Source: Galliscardovia ingluviei (GTDB lineage Bacteria > Actinomycetota > Actinomycetes > Actinomycetales > Bifidobacteriaceae). Taken from it: DNA of 64,000 nt. The notes under the pieces are model-generated. The model did no database searches, was not told the DNA's origin, and saw only the letters and a list, made by a program, of their open reading frames with translations. This document shows positions 10,528-64,000 of the stretch, piece by piece. The position numbers and the translations under genes are program-made. Positions within the stretch are counted from its first letter, which is position 1. Every line of letters starts with the position of its first letter. Where the stretch lies: positions 402,472 through 466,471 of the forward strand of contig NZ_BMDH01000002.1 of NCBI RefSeq assembly GCF_014635685.1, given 5' to 3'.

Positions 10528-10615
10528 GGAGGATTCGCCTAGTGGTCTATGGCGCACGCTTGGAAAGCGTGTTGGGTTCACGCCCTCACGAGTTCGAATC
10601 TCGTATCCTCCGCCA
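10528..10615 (+). tRNA. tRNA-Ser (anticodon GGA)
   Basis: An 88-nt class II tRNA. The acceptor arms GGAGGAT and ATCCTCC pair, the discriminator is G and CCA is encoded. The anticodon loop reads CTTGGAAAG, giving anticodon GGA for Ser (UCC/UCU). A long variable arm follows, and the T arm carries GTTCGAATC. Confidence 0.96.
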
Positions 10616-55963: not shown

Positions 55964-57019
55964 TTACTCCTGCACCTGAGCGCGAGCAATCTTACCGGTG
56001 AAGGAATTAGCTTCATCAGCATCAGCCACACCCTGATTATTCCAAGAGAACATCGCACGCAGCTTAGGACCTACAGTCTCGATGCGCTCGTTGGAGTACT
56101 TCTCCTGCAGTTCCTTGAAGTGTGGAGCACCTGCATCCTGATCGTCGATGAATTCCTTAGCGAAGGAACCATCCTGAATGCGCTTCAAGTGGTACTGCAT
56201 GCGCTCGCGGCAGCTTTCATCGATAACAGTGTTCACATAGTCGCCGTACTGTGCGGTATCAGAGCAAGACCAGCGAGCCTTGTTCAAACCACCCTCATTC
56301 ATGAGGTCAACGAGCATCTTGAGCTCGTGGCAAACCTCGAAGTAAGCGATTTCTGGCTGATAACCAGCGTCGGTCAATACTTCAAAGCCCATTTCTACGA
56401 GCTTGTTCACGCCGCCCATCAGCACGTTCTGCTCGCCGAAGAGATCAGTCTCAGTCTCTTCCTTGAACGTGGTCTTAATAGCACCTGCACGAAGCGCACC
56501 CAAAGCCTTAGCATAAGCGAGAGTAATATCCCAGCCGTCACCGCGTGGGTCTTGCTCTACTGCCACCACCACAGGGACACCACGGCCAGCAGCATACTCA
56601 CGACGCACAATATGACCAGGACCCTTAGGAGCCACCATGAATACAGGGTGGTCTTCGCTTGGCTTGATATAGCCATAATGAATATTAAAACCATGAGCAA
56701 ACGCAAGAGCAGCACCTGGCTTAATATTTGGCTCAATGTCATTTGCCCAGATAGTGCGCTGATACTGATCTGGTGCCAAAATCATGATGATATCTGCTTC
56801 GGCAGTGGCATCAGCAACAGACTTAACTTCCAAGCCCTGTTCCTTAGCGAATTCAACAGACTTTGAAGTTGGACGCAAACCAACAACTACATCCACACCA
56901 GAATCACGCAAATTCAACGCATGGGCATGACCCTGAGAACCGTAGCCAATAATTGCGACCTTCTTGCCGTCGAGTACAGAGAGATCACCATCGTTTTCAT
57001 ACCAGATTTGTGCAGCCAT
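55964..57019 (-). CDS. ilvC: Ketol-acid reductoisomerase, copy 1
   Basis: A 351-residue class I enzyme that converts acetolactate or acetohydroxybutyrate to the dihydroxy acids of valine, leucine and isoleucine synthesis. The start is ATG 57019 ([19 protein letters not shown]) after AGGAG; an in-frame extension to 57136 is not conserved. [17 protein letters not shown] is the NADPH-binding Rossmann loop, and the knotted C-terminal domain holds the Mg ligands ([17 protein letters not shown]). It has the same length as the copy at 59679 and shares long identical blocks, with diverged segments between them. Confidence 0.97.
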
Positions 57020-57356
57020 TGCCGGCACTCCTTTTCTTTCAGCGCTTTCTAGCACTATCTTGCAGCCGTTGGCATTGCGGGCGTTGCCACATGCGTAGGC
57101 TGCCATTTCGAGGGGCTTAGCGATTGTGTCGCTCAAACTTGGGTCTATCCTATCTATATTGCGGCAAAATCGCGCAGTCGTTCCACAACGTGGGCGTTCT
57201 TTTTAGTTTTGTTCATCGTCGAACATTACTTTCGCTATTTTACACGCTTTTACAGCATATTGTGCACGCACACACCCTGCTGATTGTCTCATACTTTGAA
57301 ACACCTGCTATTCATAACGATCCCCCCTGTTCGCAAAATCCCCGCTCTCTACAAAT

Positions 57357-57802: not shown

Positions 57803-57851
57803 ATTACCAAACAGCTTTACCTACTTAACACAACAATTGTACAGTTCAGCT

Positions 57852-58799
57852 ATGTTACGAGATTCTTTACTTAACCAAGTCATCGATTACCAGCAACAAT
57901 CACTGTGTCTGAAAGCACGAACACAAGGCGAGCAACGAGCGCTTGCCTATCTATGCAAAAAGGGACTACTTATATCGCCATTCCCAACTTATTACATTAC
58001 TCAAGAACATTGGGACATACTTACTCATTTTGAACGTATACGATACATTGCCAATACTTACGCCTGCACACATCAAGACTGCATATTTACAGGGTTAACC
58101 GCCGCTGATTTCTATCAAATAGACCACATGCATAGTAGCCACCACAACATTCCAATTAATGTGCTCAGCCGAACTAACACCACAAAGAAGCTTAATAAAC
58201 CTATACAACGCTTCTATTGCGCAGATCCTAGGTTCCAAACTATTCAGGGACTAAGAATAGCACCAATCGAACGCACCATTGTTGACTGTTGCAACTACCT
58301 GCCACTAAGAGAAGCACTACCAATTATCGACAGCGCGGTTCGGCAAGGAATAAGCATTGCAGACCTGCAACATTATTGCAATACGCTACGCAGAGATTGT
58401 AGTCAGACTCTCCACGCTCTACGGTATGCGAATCCGAAAAGCGAGAATGGAGGAGAATCATTTTGCAGGGGAACTTTTATTGAAGCAGGGCTGGAAGTAC
58501 CTTCGATTCAAGTGACGTTTAAAATATATAACATGTCTTTTCGAGTTGATTTTGCATGGTATAGTGCGTCTGGACGAATTGTTGCTGGCGAGCTGGATGG
58601 AGAAGAGAAATACGTTAATCCGTCAATGACTCAGGGGAAATCTATCTCTGCAATAGTGCAAGATGAGCGAGAACGTGAGAATTTACTCAGCAAATGCGGC
58701 ATTAGCAATATTTTCCGTTTCACATTTCAGGATGCACTGCAGAGACAGCCACTGATTAAAAAGGCAGTGCAGGCTGGCGTACAAAAAGCAGTGTACTGA
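57852..58799 (+). CDS. AbiEi-like antitoxin-domain protein, orphan
   Basis: A 315-residue protein. The start is ATG 57852 (MLRDSLLNQVIDYQQQ); a TTG 15 bp upstream is possible and no clear ribosome-binding site is visible. The N-terminal half has the layout of actinobacterial proteins with an AbiEi-type winged-helix domain (LAYLCKKGLLISPFPTYYIT, then FTGLTAADFY, then IAPIERTIVDCC). The C-terminal part (VDFAWYSASGRIVAGELDGE then a Tyr and R-x-R-E-N-L-L) resembles a DUF559/Vsr-like endonuclease fold. AbiEi antitoxins usually partner a nucleotidyltransferase toxin AbiEii; none is present here. The gene is enclosed by arrays F and G, themselves between two ilvC copies. Confidence 0.65.
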   Translation: MLRDSLLNQVIDYQQQSLCLKARTQGEQRALAYLCKKGLLISPFPTYYITQEHWDILTHFERIRYIANTYACTHQDCIFTGLTAADFYQIDHMHSSHHNIPINVLSRTNTTKKLNKPIQRFYCADPRFQTIQGLRIAPIERTIVDCCNYLPLREALPIIDSAVRQGISIADLQHYCNTLRRDCSQTLHALRYANPKSENGGESFCRGTFIEAGLEVPSIQVTFKIYNMSFRVDFAWYSASGRIVAGELDGEEKYVNPSMTQGKSISAIVQDERERENLLSKCGISNIFRFTFQDALQRQPLIKKAVQAGVQKAVY

Positions 58800-59678: not shown

Positions 59679-60734
59679 TTACTCCTGTACCTGAGCGCGA
59701 GCAATCTTGCCGGTGAAGGAGTTAGCTTCATCAGCATCAGCCACACCCTGATTATTCCAAGAGAACATCGCACGCAGCTTAGGACCTACAGTCTCAAGAT
59801 GAGGATGAGAGTACTCTTCCTGCAGCTTCTTGAACTTTGGCGCACCAGCTGCCTGATCATCCATAAATTCCTTAGCGAAAGAACCATCCTGAATACGCTT
59901 GAGCTGATAACGCATGCGCTCCTTGGTTTCTTCAGTAATTACTGTTGAAGTGTAATCGCCATACTGTGCGGTATCAGAGCAAGACCAGCGAGCCTTGTTC
60001 AAACCACCCTCGTTTGCCAGATCAACCAGCATCTTCAATTCATGGAATACTTCAAAGTAGGCGATTTCTGGCTGGTAGCCTGCTTCGGTCAGCACATCAA
60101 AACCAGCCTCGCACAAGTGATTGATACCGCCCATCAGCACGTCCTGTTCACCGAAGAGATCAGTCTCAGTCTCTTCCTTGAACGTGGTCTTAATAGCACC
60201 CGCACGAAGCGCACCCAAAGCCTTAGCATATGCCAGTGTTGTTGCCCAAGCATCACCACGAGGGTCTTGCTCTACTGCCACCACCACAGGTACGCCGCGA
60301 CCAGCAGCATACTCACGACGCACAATATGACCAGGACCCTTAGGAGCCACCATAAATACAGGGTGATCTTCACCAGGCTTGATATAACCATAATGAATAT
60401 TAAAACCATGAGCAAACGCAAGAGCCGCACCTGGCTTCAAATTTGGCGCTACTTCTTCGTTGTATACCTTAGCTTGGTACTGATCTGGAAGCAGGATCAT
60501 TACGATATCAGCATCTGCTACTGCCTCGGCTACTGGCTTTACGGTAAGGCCCTGCTCCTTGGCAAATTCAACAGACTTTGAAGTTGGACGCAAACCAACA
60601 ACTACATCCACACCAGAATCACGCAAATTCAGCGCATGCGCATGACCCTGAGAACCATAACCCAAAATTGCAACTGTTTTTCCATCGAGTACTGAAAGAT
60701 CTGCGTCATCGTCATACCACAATGTTGCTGCCAT
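59679..60734 (-). CDS. ilvC: Ketol-acid reductoisomerase, copy 2
   Basis: A 351-residue class I enzyme, the paralogue of the copy at 55964. The start is ATG 60734 ([19 protein letters not shown]) after AGGGG. The same NADPH loop [17 protein letters not shown] and Mg ligands are present. Differences cluster in ~85-125, ~205-215 and ~270-320, while the NADPH loop to residue ~60, the central block around [20 protein letters not shown] and the last ~35 residues are identical. The two copies may differ in regulation or cofactor use, as in other bifidobacteria. ACTAGTAATT repeats lie just upstream (60766-60790). Confidence 0.97.
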
Positions 60735-60946
60735 TTGGCACCCCTTAATATTATTCATTTTGTAATTAACTAGTAATTCACTAGTAATCAACTCTCCATA
60801 ACCGGCTTAACTACCGGCACTTCTGTGTTCAGTTATGCAATATTGAGTTATACGTTTATATATAGGGACTTACTGAATAGGGAATAAACTTTGTAATACT
60901 GAGAAAGTGGTACCCAGTAAATACATTACTGAGTAAGCGTTGAGCA

Positions 60947-62314
60947 TTACTTAGTAAAATCAGTATCCTTGGTTTCTCGGCAAGTCAGTACGGAAATCAG
61001 GCAGCACACAGCCATAACGCCTAAATACAGGCCGACAGCGCGCACACCCCAGTGCGACGAAAGCCATGTTGCGATAGTTGGCACAAATGCAGCACCAACA
61101 ATTGCCGCCAAGTTATAGCCAATGCCAGAACCCGAGTAGCGCACATTCGCGTCAAATAGCTCAGGAAGTACAGCGCCGATTGGACCGAAAGCAATACCCA
61201 TCAGCATGAAGCCTACGCACAGGAAGGTCATCACAGCGAGCACATCATGCTTGCCTTCGCCCATAAGCAAGTAAGGGAAAGCGAATGCAAACACAACCAG
61301 TGCGACAGAAGAGAACGTCAGCACGCGGCGACGACCATACTTATCTGCAAGCAAGCAGCCTACAACGATGAAAAGTGCGAATACACAGATAGCAACCATC
61401 AGCATCAGCAGGTACTCCTGATTGGTGAAACCTAATCCGCCGCCACCCTGCTCAGTGCTCTTAGTGCCGTATGCCAATGACCATGTTGCCAGTGTGTAGA
61501 ACAGCGTGTAAGTAACAGCCACAAGGAATGTTGCTTGCAAAACCTGACGCCAGCTCTTGCGGAATACCTCAACCAGTGGTGCCTTAACCACTTCATCACG
61601 CTCCTGAGCCATGCGGAAAATTGGAGTTTCTTCCATATGCACACGAACTACAAGACCGATAATTACGAGCACGGAGCTCAGTAAGAATGGTACGCGCCAG
61701 CCCCAGCTGAGCATGGCGGCGTCATCATTAAACGCCTCAAGTAAGAAGAATGTGCCGTTAGAGAGGAAGAAACCGATAGGGGCGCCGAGTTCAGGGAATG
61801 AACCATAGAGTGCGCGCTTATTGGCAGGGGCGTTTTCGGTAGCTACCAGAGCAGCTCCAGACCATTCGCCTCCCAAGCCAATACCTTGCACAAAACGGCA
61901 TAAACACAGCAACGCAACTGCTGCCAAGCCCCACTGGTTATATCCAGGAATGCAGCCGATAAGGAATGTGGCAACACCCATGGTGAGCAAGCTGACTACC
62001 AATGTGGTTTTGCGACCAAGCCTGTCGCCAAAATGACCGAAAATCAGTGAGCCGACAGGGCGTGCGATAAAGGCCACAGCAAAGGTCACCAAGCTCAGCA
62101 GCAATGCAACTGTTGGGTTCGTAGTATCCGAAAAGAATACGTGTGGGAAATAGTTTGCTGCTGCCGTGCCGTAGGCATAAAAGTCATAGAATTCAATAGC
62201 CGTGCCCACCATCGAAGCCGCGATTACGGTTTTTACTGAATCGCGAACCATGGTTGAAGCATGCTGCACGCTATTGGAAACGCTTCCGAATGCCGATTCT
62301 TCTACTGCTGTCAT
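60947..62314 (-). CDS. MHS-family MFS transporter (metabolite:H+ symporter)
   Basis: A 455-residue membrane protein with about twelve segments. The start is ATG 62314 (MTAVEESAFGSVSN) after GAGGAG. GTAIEFYDFYAYGTAAA opens segment 1 as in the ShiA/ProP/KgtP group. FGHFGDRLGRKTTL is the MFS loop 2-3 signature, and RFVQGIGLGGEWSGAALVATEN the MHS signature. Substrates in this family are organic acids, betaines or dicarboxylates. It is downstream of a structured leader with an Ile/Leu-containing peptide and next to ilvC, so a branched-chain keto or hydroxy acid is a possible substrate (inference). Confidence 0.9.
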   Translation of the reverse strand: MTAVEESAFGSVSNSVQHASTMVRDSVKTVIAASMVGTAIEFYDFYAYGTAAANYFPHVFFSDTTNPTVALLLSLVTFAVAFIARPVGSLIFGHFGDRLGRKTTLVVSLLTMGVATFLIGCIPGYNQWGLAAVALLCLCRFVQGIGLGGEWSGAALVATENAPANKRALYGSFPELGAPIGFFLSNGTFFLLEAFNDDAAMLSWGWRVPFLLSSVLVIIGLVVRVHMEETPIFRMAQERDEVVKAPLVEVFRKSWRQVLQATFLVAVTYTLFYTLATWSLAYGTKSTEQGGGGLGFTNQEYLLMLMVAICVFALFIVVGCLLADKYGRRRVLTFSSVALVVFAFAFPYLLMGEGKHDVLAVMTFLCVGFMLMGIAFGPIGAVLPELFDANVRYSGSGIGYNLAAIVGAAFVPTIATWLSSHWGVRAVGLYLGVMAVCCLISVLTCRETKDTDFTK

Positions 62315-62691
62315 TCCTACTCTCCTCAAGTAGAGTGCGCCTGTAACGTGCTTGCATTTGCAATTACAAGCCACTTACAGTATTTCGCATAGATTTACGT
62401 ATAGTTTTGCTCACTATGAGCGCTTTGCTATGCGTATTGCTATGCATTTGTACTTATGCATTAGTTGCTTTATGAGTTTTAGGGGTTGTGCAATGTGTTA
62501 TGTAATGAAGCATCATCTCGAGTACAACGAAACTCCACACATGCACATATGCGCTACAAGTATTGGTGTCTCTTGTGTTGCCGATGTATCGAACCATCTG
62601 TAGCACAAAACATCCGAGCTGCGCGAGCGCCCTATTCGCGACTAATGCACTCTCTAGCAGTGTGACTTTGGAATCCCTTTTGGGGAGCTAT
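62315..62691. other. Gap between attenuator and MHS transporter
   Basis: No gene seen on either strand; nothing clearly recognisable except low-complexity GCATAG/TGCATAAG stretches near 62400-62460. Confidence 0.4.
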
Positions 62692-62720
62692 GTAAAAAGC
62701 CTTACCGCTTGGCAAGGCTT
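62692..62720 (-). terminator. Rho-independent terminator or attenuator after the leader peptide
   Basis: On the minus strand AAGCCTTGCCAAGCGGTAAG then GCTTTTTAC folds into AAGCCTT / AAGGCTT with inner CC/GG pairs and ends in TTTTT. GGCAGGG ~30 bases upstream can pair with CCTTGCC of the left arm (seven pairs, one wobble), giving a possible antiterminator. Confidence 0.75.
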
Positions 62721-62768
62721 GAAATTCAACTCGAGCCCTGCCTGTTGGCGAGCTCGGTGTATGCCGAA

Positions 62769-62837
62769 TTAGTCCGCCAACGAGAGCGGAATAATAATTC
62801 GTGCAACCTGCTTGGTGTACTGCGTCATTCCGTTCAT
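62769..62837 (-). CDS. 22-residue leader peptide with Ile triplet
   Basis: Too short for normal gene calling but preceded by a very strong ribosome-binding site AAAGGAGG 7 bp before ATG 62837. It reads MNGMTQYTKQVA then RIIIPLSLAD and stops at TAA. Three successive Ile codons (ATT ATT ATT) plus two Leu codons lie close to the stop. GUUGGCG in its last codons can pair with CGCCAAC downstream, and the terminator follows 48 bases after the stop. This is the layout of a ribosome-mediated attenuator for branched-chain amino acids. The first downstream gene on this strand is the MHS transporter, ~380 bp further. Role inferred. Confidence 0.65.
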   Translation of the reverse strand: MNGMTQYTKQVARIIIPLSLAD

Positions 62838-62863
62838 GGCGAACCTCCTTTCGGCTAAGCCTT

Positions 62864-62915: not shown

Positions 62916-62931
62916 CTATCACGTCCACTAT

Positions 62932-62985
62932 GTGAAACGTTTGACGTGAGGAGTTTATTCTTATCTCACATGCAGTGTTACACAA
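62932..62985 (-). promoter_or_regulatory. Promoter and LacI-type operator of the leader transcript
   Basis: TTGTGT (62985-62980) and TAAGAA (62963-62958) are 16 bp apart on the minus strand. Just after the likely start point is GTGAAACGTTTGAC (62932-62945) with the central palindrome AAACGTTT, the pattern of LacI/CcpA-type operators. The divergent LacI-type gene at 63211 is the obvious candidate regulator. Confidence 0.55.
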
Positions 62986-63210: not shown

Positions 63211-64000
63211 ATGGTTACTCTTGACGACATTGCGAAAGAAGTTGGCGTATCAAAGGTAACTGTTTCTAATGCACTCCGAGGCAAAGCCAATGTTTCCAAA
63301 GAAATGACAGCTCGCATCACCCAAGTAGCGCGTTCAATGCACTATCGCATTGGCGCCAGAAGTGTGGCTGCACGAAACCTCAAAACACAAAACGAGCAAA
63401 CACAAGGACCAGTTAGCATTATTGCTCCTTCCAACTCTGATATATGGACTGCTGAATTTGTGCAACATTGCGTGAACGCTTGCACTCAGGCGCAGCGCCA
63501 AGTATTTGTGCAATATGTCGATGCACAGGCTGAGTTTGAGCTTGAACAGTTGGCAAATCAAGTTGCTGATGGCATGATTATTGCCCATCCGACATTGCCG
63601 GACGCCACATTACAGCAGCTTGTGTTGCATCGCCCAACCGTGTGCATTGACCGTTTGGCAGGAGGGCGTGATGCCGATGCTGTGCTGACCGACTCTGATA
63701 GAGGTATGCAGAATGGCATTGAATATTTGGTTTCTAGTGGCAAAAGAAAAATTTTAATTATCGATCAGCCAGATCTGCAAGAACATCAAAACCAGCAGAA
63801 CTTTCCAGATTTGCAAAAACCACAAGAGCCGCAAACACAGAGCACAGAACAGCACCGGCAAGTGAACGAACAAGAACAGGCTCAGAGCATGCGCTTTTCT
63901 GCACTACTGCATGAACGTAAACTCAGCGCCTTACATACTTTGGAGGAGCTTGGTATTCCAACAGATGCTAGCAGTGTGATTACTGTCGAGCAAACACGCG
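63211..64000 (+). CDS. LacI-family transcriptional regulator, 5' part (cut by window edge)
   Basis: At least 263 residues. GGCGGAG precedes ATG 63211. VTLDDIAKEVGVSKVTVSNA is the LacI helix-turn-helix, followed by the hinge (RGKANVSKEMTARI). The periplasmic-binding-like sensor domain begins at ~70 (GPVSIIAPSNSD). An insertion of about 45 residues rich in Gln, Glu and Pro (~190-230) interrupts it. It is divergent from the MHS transporter with a LacI-type operator between them and probably regulates that leader and its own gene. The C-terminus lies outside the window. Confidence 0.93.
   Translation, partial: MVTLDDIAKEVGVSKVTVSNALRGKANVSKEMTARITQVARSMHYRIGARSVAARNLKTQNEQTQGPVSIIAPSNSDIWTAEFVQHCVNACTQAQRQVFVQYVDAQAEFELEQLANQVADGMIIAHPTLPDATLQQLVLHRPTVCIDRLAGGRDADAVLTDSDRGMQNGIEYLVSSGKRKILIIDQPDLQEHQNQQNFPDLQKPQEPQTQSTEQHRQVNEQEQAQSMRFSALLHERKLSALHTLEELGIPTDASSVITVEQTR

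Follow-up and report, generated by a model that had tools for sequence, protein, structure and literature searches.

The locus studied here raises the question of why a 22-codon reading frame with three isoleucine codons, followed by an intrinsic terminator, stands before a transporter gene that is in turn followed by ilvC. The element occupies positions 62692-62837, minus strand, of the window, by which we mean the whole analysed stretch of 64,000 nt from Galliscardovia ingluviei (assembly GCF_014635685.1, contig NZ_BMDH01000002.1, forward strand 402,472-466,471). An earlier note on this DNA had proposed an attenuator with an Ile/Leu leader peptide, a terminator and an antiterminator. We consider it very probable (roughly 85%) that the transporter-ilvC unit of bifidobacteria is controlled by this element, acting as a translation-coupled transcription attenuator for which charged isoleucyl-tRNA is the sensed signal. 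The general scheme of the note was thus supported by comparison with relatives, but the note had overlooked a hairpin (2:3, below) that the logic of the switch needs.

The leader and the genes behind it

The leader and the two genes that follow it in the window were as follows.

62844-62851, minus strand: ribosome-binding site of the leader, AAAGGAGG, from sequence
62769-62837, minus strand: leader peptide frame of 22 codons, MNGMTQYTKQVARIIIPLSLAD, with the ATG at 62837 and the stop codon TAA at 62771-62769
62790-62801, minus strand: CGA ATT ATT ATT, an Arg codon with the Ile control codons behind it (core CGAATTATTA)
60947-62374, minus strand: MHS-type MFS transporter (Pfam Sugar_tr/MFS_1), the first gene
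59679-60791, minus strand: ilvC, ketol-acid reductoisomerase, the second gene (NF004017, 513.5 bits against a cutoff of 336)

The 22-codon frame and its good ribosome-binding site were present in the sequence as first described, the latter at 62851-62844. The peptide stretch RIIIPLSL was also there, although it did not lie directly at the stop codon, since AD intervenes. The transporter frame was listed from 62374, and an ATG at 62314 was the more likely start because many homologs matched from about residue 21. Against TIGR00883 (metabolite/H+ symporter) the protein scored 419.1 bits, below the cutoff of 443.45. The terminator ended about 380 nt before this likely ATG, which left room for another promoter. 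The ilvC gene, whose product acts in isoleucine synthesis, began about 0.2 kb behind the transporter; no terminator-like structure was found in the 219-nt gap between them, and this AT-rich gap could hold a promoter as well.

Two ilvC genes were present in the window, both facing the same way (55964-57136 and 59679-60791), and the leader was upstream only of the latter. Between them was a plus-strand gene (57837-58799) with no NCBIfam or Pfam match. The ilvB gene of the same genome was located on another contig, and no short frame rich in branched-chain amino acid codons with a ribosome-binding site was seen upstream of it (the Shine-Dalgarno match was judged by eye). Scans of the window itself added little. 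Namely, a simple terminator scan did not list the terminator of the leader, the same simple scan found no sigma-70 consensus promoter, and an Rfam scan at gathering thresholds returned a tRNA (10528-10612) and no T-box or riboswitch.

Conservation of the leader in Bifidobacteriaceae

In a first draw of 59 genomes, the core CGAATTATTA was upstream of all 15 close transporter orthologs (at least 74% identity, the window's own included), and a covariance model was built from 11 of those 15 loci. Two larger searches were run with stricter filters, under which weak matches were lost: the model matched in 118 of 189 Bifidobacteriaceae genomes (113 of 161 among the good-quality ones), and an order-wide draw of 396 genomes gave 23 matches, all 23 within Bifidobacteriaceae. 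Positive genomes mostly had one copy, and five had two. The genome of the window had one; a second copy was suggested only by a weak partial match (E = 1.2) and was rejected.

A close transporter ortholog (E <= 1e-180) was encoded by 119 of the 189 genomes, and in all 119 either the element or its 10-nt core was upstream. In 113 of them the model match adjoined the transporter by coordinates. The other six (G014, G023, G029, G034, G202 and G203) were recognised by the core alone and had diverged leaders; the frames of G202 and G203 were checked by script. Model matches without a close transporter ortholog were found in G067, where the transporter ran off the contig end, in G072 and G113, and by chance in G010. 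No leader, transporter or ilvC was found with the matches in G203 and G010 or with the second match in G103 (E about 0.008), and these were set aside as chance; the real leader of G203 was elsewhere, before its transporter.

The model matches corresponded to 123 places, of which 111 were fetched with flanks, and after three were dropped 108 leaders were counted. Eight of the 12 places outside the flank set were read afterwards and all had the core; G190, G191, G192 and G194 were judged on coordinates alone. Leader-like C-terminal ends were found in the 108 loci and, additionally, in 38 of 39 loci from named records, which overlap with the other genomes and are not independent of them. All 38 were labelled as Bifidobacterium in their records. 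The exception, labelled as a Streptococcaceae MAG, had a transporter 63% identical and no core.

The peptide was conserved precisely where isoleucine would be read. Of the three codons that follow Arg, at least two encoded Ile in every one of the 108 leaders, and the core CGAATTATTA was exact in 104, the remaining four each being one base off. The C-terminal ends read R-I-I-I in 62 leaders, R-I-I-S in 39, R-I-M-I in 3, R-I-I-N in 3 and R-M-I-I in 1. The stop codon followed the Arg codon at a distance of 30 nt in 101 leaders and of 27 nt in 7. The N-terminus was freely variable, and the frames, measured from the leftmost start, had from 18 to at most 82 codons. By loose criteria, a short, putatively translated frame with a start, a ribosome-binding site and a stop before the switch was present in all 108; a start with a Shine-Dalgarno match of at least 5 nt occurred in the leader frame of 78, as compared with 1 and 3 for the other two frames. 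As the earlier note had suggested looking for, both the peptide and the pairing described below were conserved in relatives.

Codon usage at the control positions differed from that in the transporter genes. ATT was used for 263 of the 278 Ile control codons, and Ile codons in the transporter genes of the same loci were 8% ATT and 91% ATC. RNA pairing or slow decoding could explain this preference. In genus g7 the leaders were long and had many Ile and Val codons, as seen by script for G202 and G203 and by eye for G014 and G029. Judged by eye, the design had changed in genera g7 and g16 (L014, L015, L016 and L017): either the peptides were long and rich in Ile and Val, or the switch had two helices, with GCCUCGCAGG able to pair with the terminator hairpin's left arm.

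The gene content behind the leader was also stable. The transporter followed by ilvC stood behind 98 of the 108 leaders, the transporter alone behind 4 (one of them at a contig end), ilvC alone behind 3 and an SBF/BASS-family transporter behind 3; thus ilvC followed directly or after the transporter in 101 loci, and ilvB in none. The earlier note had regarded a transporter next to ilvC as atypical for such an attenuator, and it turned out to be the usual arrangement. Since the leader was placed directly before ilvC in three loci, the element appears to be an ilv attenuator whose unit includes a transporter gene. In two genomes, G179 (L140/L168) and G180 (L143/L164), the transporter and ilvC were 5 to 9 kb apart and a leader copy preceded each.

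The three loci with a transporter of the sodium/bile-acid symporter (SBF/BASS) family, each with a complete leader, were from G113 (L137), G173 (L158) and G072 (L161), and G072 and G113 lacked a close ortholog of the MHS transporter. Two of these proteins matched Pfam PF01758 and the third was 97% identical; this Pfam family differs from that of the MHS transporter. An SBF/BASS gene was present in 82 of the 189 genomes (E <= 1e-30), but the leader was rejected as a general feature of these genes: among 20 fetched loci, 3 had it, 14 were read and lacked it, and 3 were unread since the start was not located by script. The SBF/BASS gene of the window's own genome had no core upstream. The leader was likewise rejected as general to the MHS transporter family, because copies 51-58% identical in G007, G002, G020, G018 and the window's own genome lacked the upstream core; relatives in genus g2 (51-53% identical, L019-L021) had no core upstream either.

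The best matches of the SBF/BASS protein among solved structures were 3zux and 3zuy, followed by the set 8oyf/8oyg. According to the accessible part of the report on the latter, this Neisseria meningitidis transporter bound pantoate and not ketopantoate (PMC10645422), and the accessible part of another report describes reduction of ketopantoate to pantoate by the IlvC of Bacillus subtilis (PMC11487621). These pantoate findings can be taken as leads to a transporter substrate and not as evidence for one. A tentative idea, which we hold to be possible but rather doubtful, is that the leader defines a small isoleucine regulon in which two unrelated and uncharacterised transporters (MHS, and SBF/BASS in three genomes) carry compounds that IlvC makes or uses. 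If it were true, the compounds might be branched hydroxy or keto acids or pantoate, and isoleucine would govern how bifidobacteria salvage or exchange intermediates of the pathway. The leader before an unrelated transporter in three genomes is, in any case, a lead to what both transporters carry.

One further feature was noted upstream of the leader.

62923-62937, no strand assigned: palindrome GTCCAC-TAT-GTGAAA (minus-strand TTTCACATAGTGGAC), a candidate operator

The pattern [CT]CACNNNGTG[GA] was present within 330 nt upstream of 74 of the 108 leaders and in 1.5% of mononucleotide shuffles. In those 74 leaders, the GTTCACATAGTGAAC-like palindrome was 125-198 nt upstream of the Arg codon. A stricter pattern occurred at three places in the window's own genome, which equalled the count for a reversed-pattern control, and one of the other two places was, when read, inside a coding frame. 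By eye, similar palindromes stood before several SBF/BASS genes without a leader, and one transcription factor may control both the leader loci and the SBF/BASS genes. A LacI-type regulator gene (63211-63999, cut by the window end) adjoined the leader region and was divergent from it.

Alternative RNA pairings and ribosome position

Five numbered RNA regions in the window copy could form the alternative pairings 1:2, 2:3, 3:4 and 4:5.

62775-62781, minus strand: region 1, GUUGGCG, inside the last leader codons
62744-62750, minus strand: region 2, CGCCAAC, which pairs with region 1 (ON) or region 3 (OFF)
62734-62742, minus strand: region 3, GGCAGGGCU, the antiterminator strand
62711-62720, minus strand: region 4, AAGCCUUGCC, the left arm of the terminator and the partner of region 3
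62697-62706, minus strand: region 5, GGUAAGGCUU, which closes the terminator and is followed by U's
62763-62804, minus strand: H1, leader hairpin of GCACGAAUUA (62804-62795) with UAAUUCGGC (62771-62763)
62733-62755, minus strand: H2, anti-antiterminator 2:3 of GAGCUCGCC with GGCAGGGCUC, that is, region 2 and its flank against region 3
62692-62720, minus strand: H3, intrinsic terminator of AAGCCUUGCC and GGUAAGGCUU (62720-62697) with its U tail

Both pairings named in the earlier note were present: GUUGGCG with CGCCAAC (62781-62775 with 62750-62744), and GGCAGGG (from 62742) with CCUUGCC in the left arm of the terminator, the latter with one G-U pair. Two hairpins had been missed, namely 2:3, which hides the antiterminator strand, and H1. 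The latter would be expected in an untranslated leader, where the Ile codons would pair with the stop region. Stretches of 178 nt and 113 nt folded better than their shuffles (z = -5.5 and z = -6.5, with 0 of 200 as good in both cases). The leader:region-2 duplex (1:2) of the window, taken alone, was only a little better than its shuffles (z = -1.4), and the z value of this duplex was below -2 in 85 of the 108 leaders.

Conservation of the helices was assessed in an alignment, A3, of 79 of the 108 leaders; it left out 4 without a terminator, 21 that were divergent or had a distant terminator or a long linker, and 4 identical ones. The terminator helix was paired in 98.4% of cells, with 34 double-changed cells as compared with 8.9 in shuffles (0/500) and 4 pairs with double changes as compared with 1.7 (0/500). 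The 1:2 helix was paired in 94.0%, and versions slid along the sequence paired in only 32-58%. It had 18 double-changed cells as compared with 7.7 in shuffles (0/500), but the number of its pairs with double changes was 3, as in shuffles (342/500 as high), so its covariation is good rather than strong support. In a divergent clade, region 1 was CCAUCGGCG and region 2 was CGCCGAUGG; both were altered and the pairing was kept. The 3:4 pairing held in 87.7% of cells (34-52% for slid versions) and the 2:3 helix in 91.1%, far above slid controls. Covariation of 2:3 and 3:4 in A3 was not beyond shuffles, as one might expect because each strand must fit two partners. H1 was paired in 96.1% of cells, hardly varied and had no covariation in A3; its constancy says little because the same bases encode the Ile codons, and it was absent from the predicted folds of L014 and L016. 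By script, a terminator was located between the leader and the first gene for 104 of the 108 leaders, five of these terminators being far off, and was not located for 4. Among the leaders with missing or distant terminators were the ilvC-side copies of G179 and G180, where the nearest one found was about 200 nt further on.

To place a ribosome on the leader, we set its leading edge 13 nt downstream of the first nucleotide of the codon in the A site, a value known from E. coli toeprints. The untranslated window fold started 40 nt before the Arg codon, and full-length folds used the free RNA through the terminator. In these equilibrium folds, terminator pairing in the window copy was predicted to be 0.96 when the leader was untranslated and 0.65 with Arg in the A site; it fell to 0.23 with the first Ile codon (Ile1) and 0.22 with the second (Ile2), and was 0.93 with the third codon after Arg, 0.96 and 0.95 at the two Leu codons, and 0.95 at the stop. 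If the RNA was free from a point 14-20 nt after the first base of the Arg codon, the pairing was at most 0.34. With the ribosome at Ile1, the minimum-energy fold was the ON state (1:2 and 3:4), at -38.6 kcal/mol as compared with -37.6 kcal/mol for OFF. Among 300 dinucleotide shuffles of the sequence in between, just one switched as well as the window copy did. By this measure, an effect of ribosome position is predicted for the window copy.

The same calculations were made for 99 of the 108 leaders, with the exclusion of 4 in which no terminator was found and 5 with a distant one. By the full-length measure, terminator pairing was lower by more than 0.3 at Ile1/Ile2 than at the stop in 13 leaders and showed the reverse in 7; the full-length equilibrium switch of the window copy does not generalise to relatives. 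A second measure asked how far region 4 pairs with upstream RNA while region 5 is still to be transcribed. Its median was 0.77 at Ile2 and 0.59 at the stop, and it differed by more than 0.3 in 33 of the 99 leaders as compared with 15% of 165 shuffled controls; the window copy showed almost no change (0.89 at Ile2, 0.84 at the stop). A third measure considered region 3 hidden before region 4 is made. Its medians were 0.26 at Arg, 0.12 at Ile1 and 0.58 at Ile2, and then 0.72-0.75 at the positions from the third codon onward, among them the Leu codons and the stop (0.75). The values at Ile2 and at the stop were more than 0.3 apart in 42 of the 99 leaders, 2 of them the wrong way. In the window copy this effect was weak (Arg 0.55, Ile1 0.73, Ile2 0.82, stop 0.90). 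The region-3 measure is the most general of the three and is nearer to the order of events. All three agree on Ile1, less so on Ile2, and none points to Leu.

Leucine was accordingly rejected as the main signal. When the ribosome stands on the Leu codons, it covers region 1 and leaves the same fold as a ribosome at the stop, and for this reason isoleucine, not leucine, is the predicted signal. Thus, the isoleucine part of the proposed Ile/Leu leader was retained as a prediction and the leucine part was not.

Proposed mechanism and its relation to known systems

In the mechanism that we propose, the 22-codon leader would be translated as soon as RNA polymerase transcribes it. When isoleucine is plentiful, the ribosome would reach the stop codon and cover region 1, so that 2:3 would form and 4:5 would terminate transcription. 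An untranslated leader would likewise adopt 2:3 and the terminator, because H1 would hide region 1. Under isoleucine shortage, the ribosome would wait with Ile1 or Ile2 in the A site and its leading edge just before region 1. Region 1 would then take region 2, and region 3, thus freed, would capture region 4 and allow read-through into the transporter and ilvC. Comparison among relatives shows the conserved parts of this scheme (the peptide, its Ile codons, the terminator, the alternative pairings and the gene context), and the effect of ribosome position is computed for the window copy. We infer that the leader is translated, that the ribosome stalls on it, that read-through follows, that ilvC is co-transcribed and that Ile-tRNA is the signal.

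How far the regulation would extend is a separate matter. The leader might regulate the transporter only, or mainly block read-through from upstream, with ilvC on its own promoter. The gaps of 197-586 nt before ilvC, AT-rich in the window, and the separate leader of ilvC in G179 and G180 are in favour of this, but terminator-like structures were found in just 3 of 98 such gaps, the transporter-ilvC order is very frequent, and some leaders directly precede ilvC. We regard this reading as unlikely. Alternatively, the nascent peptide itself could arrest the ribosome, perhaps together with a small-molecule ligand, such that the RNA switch reads the stall and not uncharged Ile-tRNA. The Arg codon was CGA in 108 of 108 leaders, also in relatives without the H1 pairing, which speaks for this; however, this constancy is partly by construction because the core anchored the search and the count. 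Moreover, the C-terminal end R-I-I-x-P-S-S-L-A-D was very constant in most leaders, yet H1 and 1:2 pairing constrain much of the same sequence as RNA. Six of the 108 leaders had no Pro between Arg and the stop, the control positions could hold I, S, N or M, with two or more Ile always kept, and the long Ile/Val-rich leaders of genus g7 would be expected of codon sensing. An arrest peptide thus appears improbable to us. A metabolite-binding riboswitch or a T-box with an incidental reading frame would explain why a strong and conserved structure precedes metabolic genes. It was rejected because there was no Rfam match at threshold in the window apart from the one tRNA; in addition, the start and ribosome-binding site were kept in the leader frame though its length varied, and the conserved part was within and just after the Ile codons. 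We give this last explanation hardly any weight.

If the isoleucine attenuator operates as proposed, an uncharacterised MHS transporter gains a functional link to branched-chain metabolism. Bifidobacteria are major gut bacteria, and a family-wide leader offers a ready test of isoleucine sensing in them; another possible use is as a native expression element that responds to isoleucine.

The control-codon logic is that of the enterobacterial trp, his and ilv attenuators, in which the position of the ribosome on the control codons picks the terminator or the antiterminator, and termination of an untranslated leader is shared with them as well. In contrast to those systems, the bifidobacterial leader has an extra segment, such that a freed region 1 would act indirectly by removing 2:3, and two or three Ile codons would do the sensing rather than a long run. 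The mechanism is of a known kind, and for its place, the bifidobacterial transporter-ilvC unit, no description was found; among the papers that searches of open-access literature brought up, with subscription papers mostly outside this scope, none described in its title or abstract an amino-acid attenuator for bifidobacterial ilv genes.

Candidate leaders of ilvB, leuA and leuS in Actinobacteria were reported by Seliverstov et al. in 2005 (PMC1262725). As far as the accessible text of that survey goes, those candidates resemble the present leader in having Ile, Val and Leu codons, with terminators for ilvB and leuS, and the ilvB candidates came from Corynebacterium, Mycobacterium and Streptomyces. 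For Bifidobacterium longum the same text lists only a cysteine leader of cbs and, inside a transposase gene, a LEU-like element; it gives no ilv leader for this species, and the word transporter is absent from it (PMC1262725).

The closest described parallel that we found is the ilvBNC attenuator, or ilvB-II motif, of Corynebacterium, which, according to the accessible parts of two reports, has a leader peptide with branched-chain amino acid codons, a terminator and an antiterminator (PMC10272879, PMC11857589). Both are actinobacterial leaders that join branched-chain codons to a terminator/antiterminator pair in the control, predicted in the bifidobacterial case, of branched-chain amino acid synthesis, and the 2025 model for Corynebacterium, in the part accessible, also includes an anti-antiterminator hairpin, like 2:3 here. 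On the same partial basis, the two differ in several respects. The peptide of C. glutamicum (MTIIRLVVVTARRLP) has Ile, Val and Leu codons, and the bifidobacterial peptide and RNA are different; the first gene is ilvB in Corynebacterium, whereas here the genes are the transporter and ilvC; and the Corynebacterium leader starts one base from the transcript start, whereas the bifidobacterial one has an ordinary ribosome-binding site.
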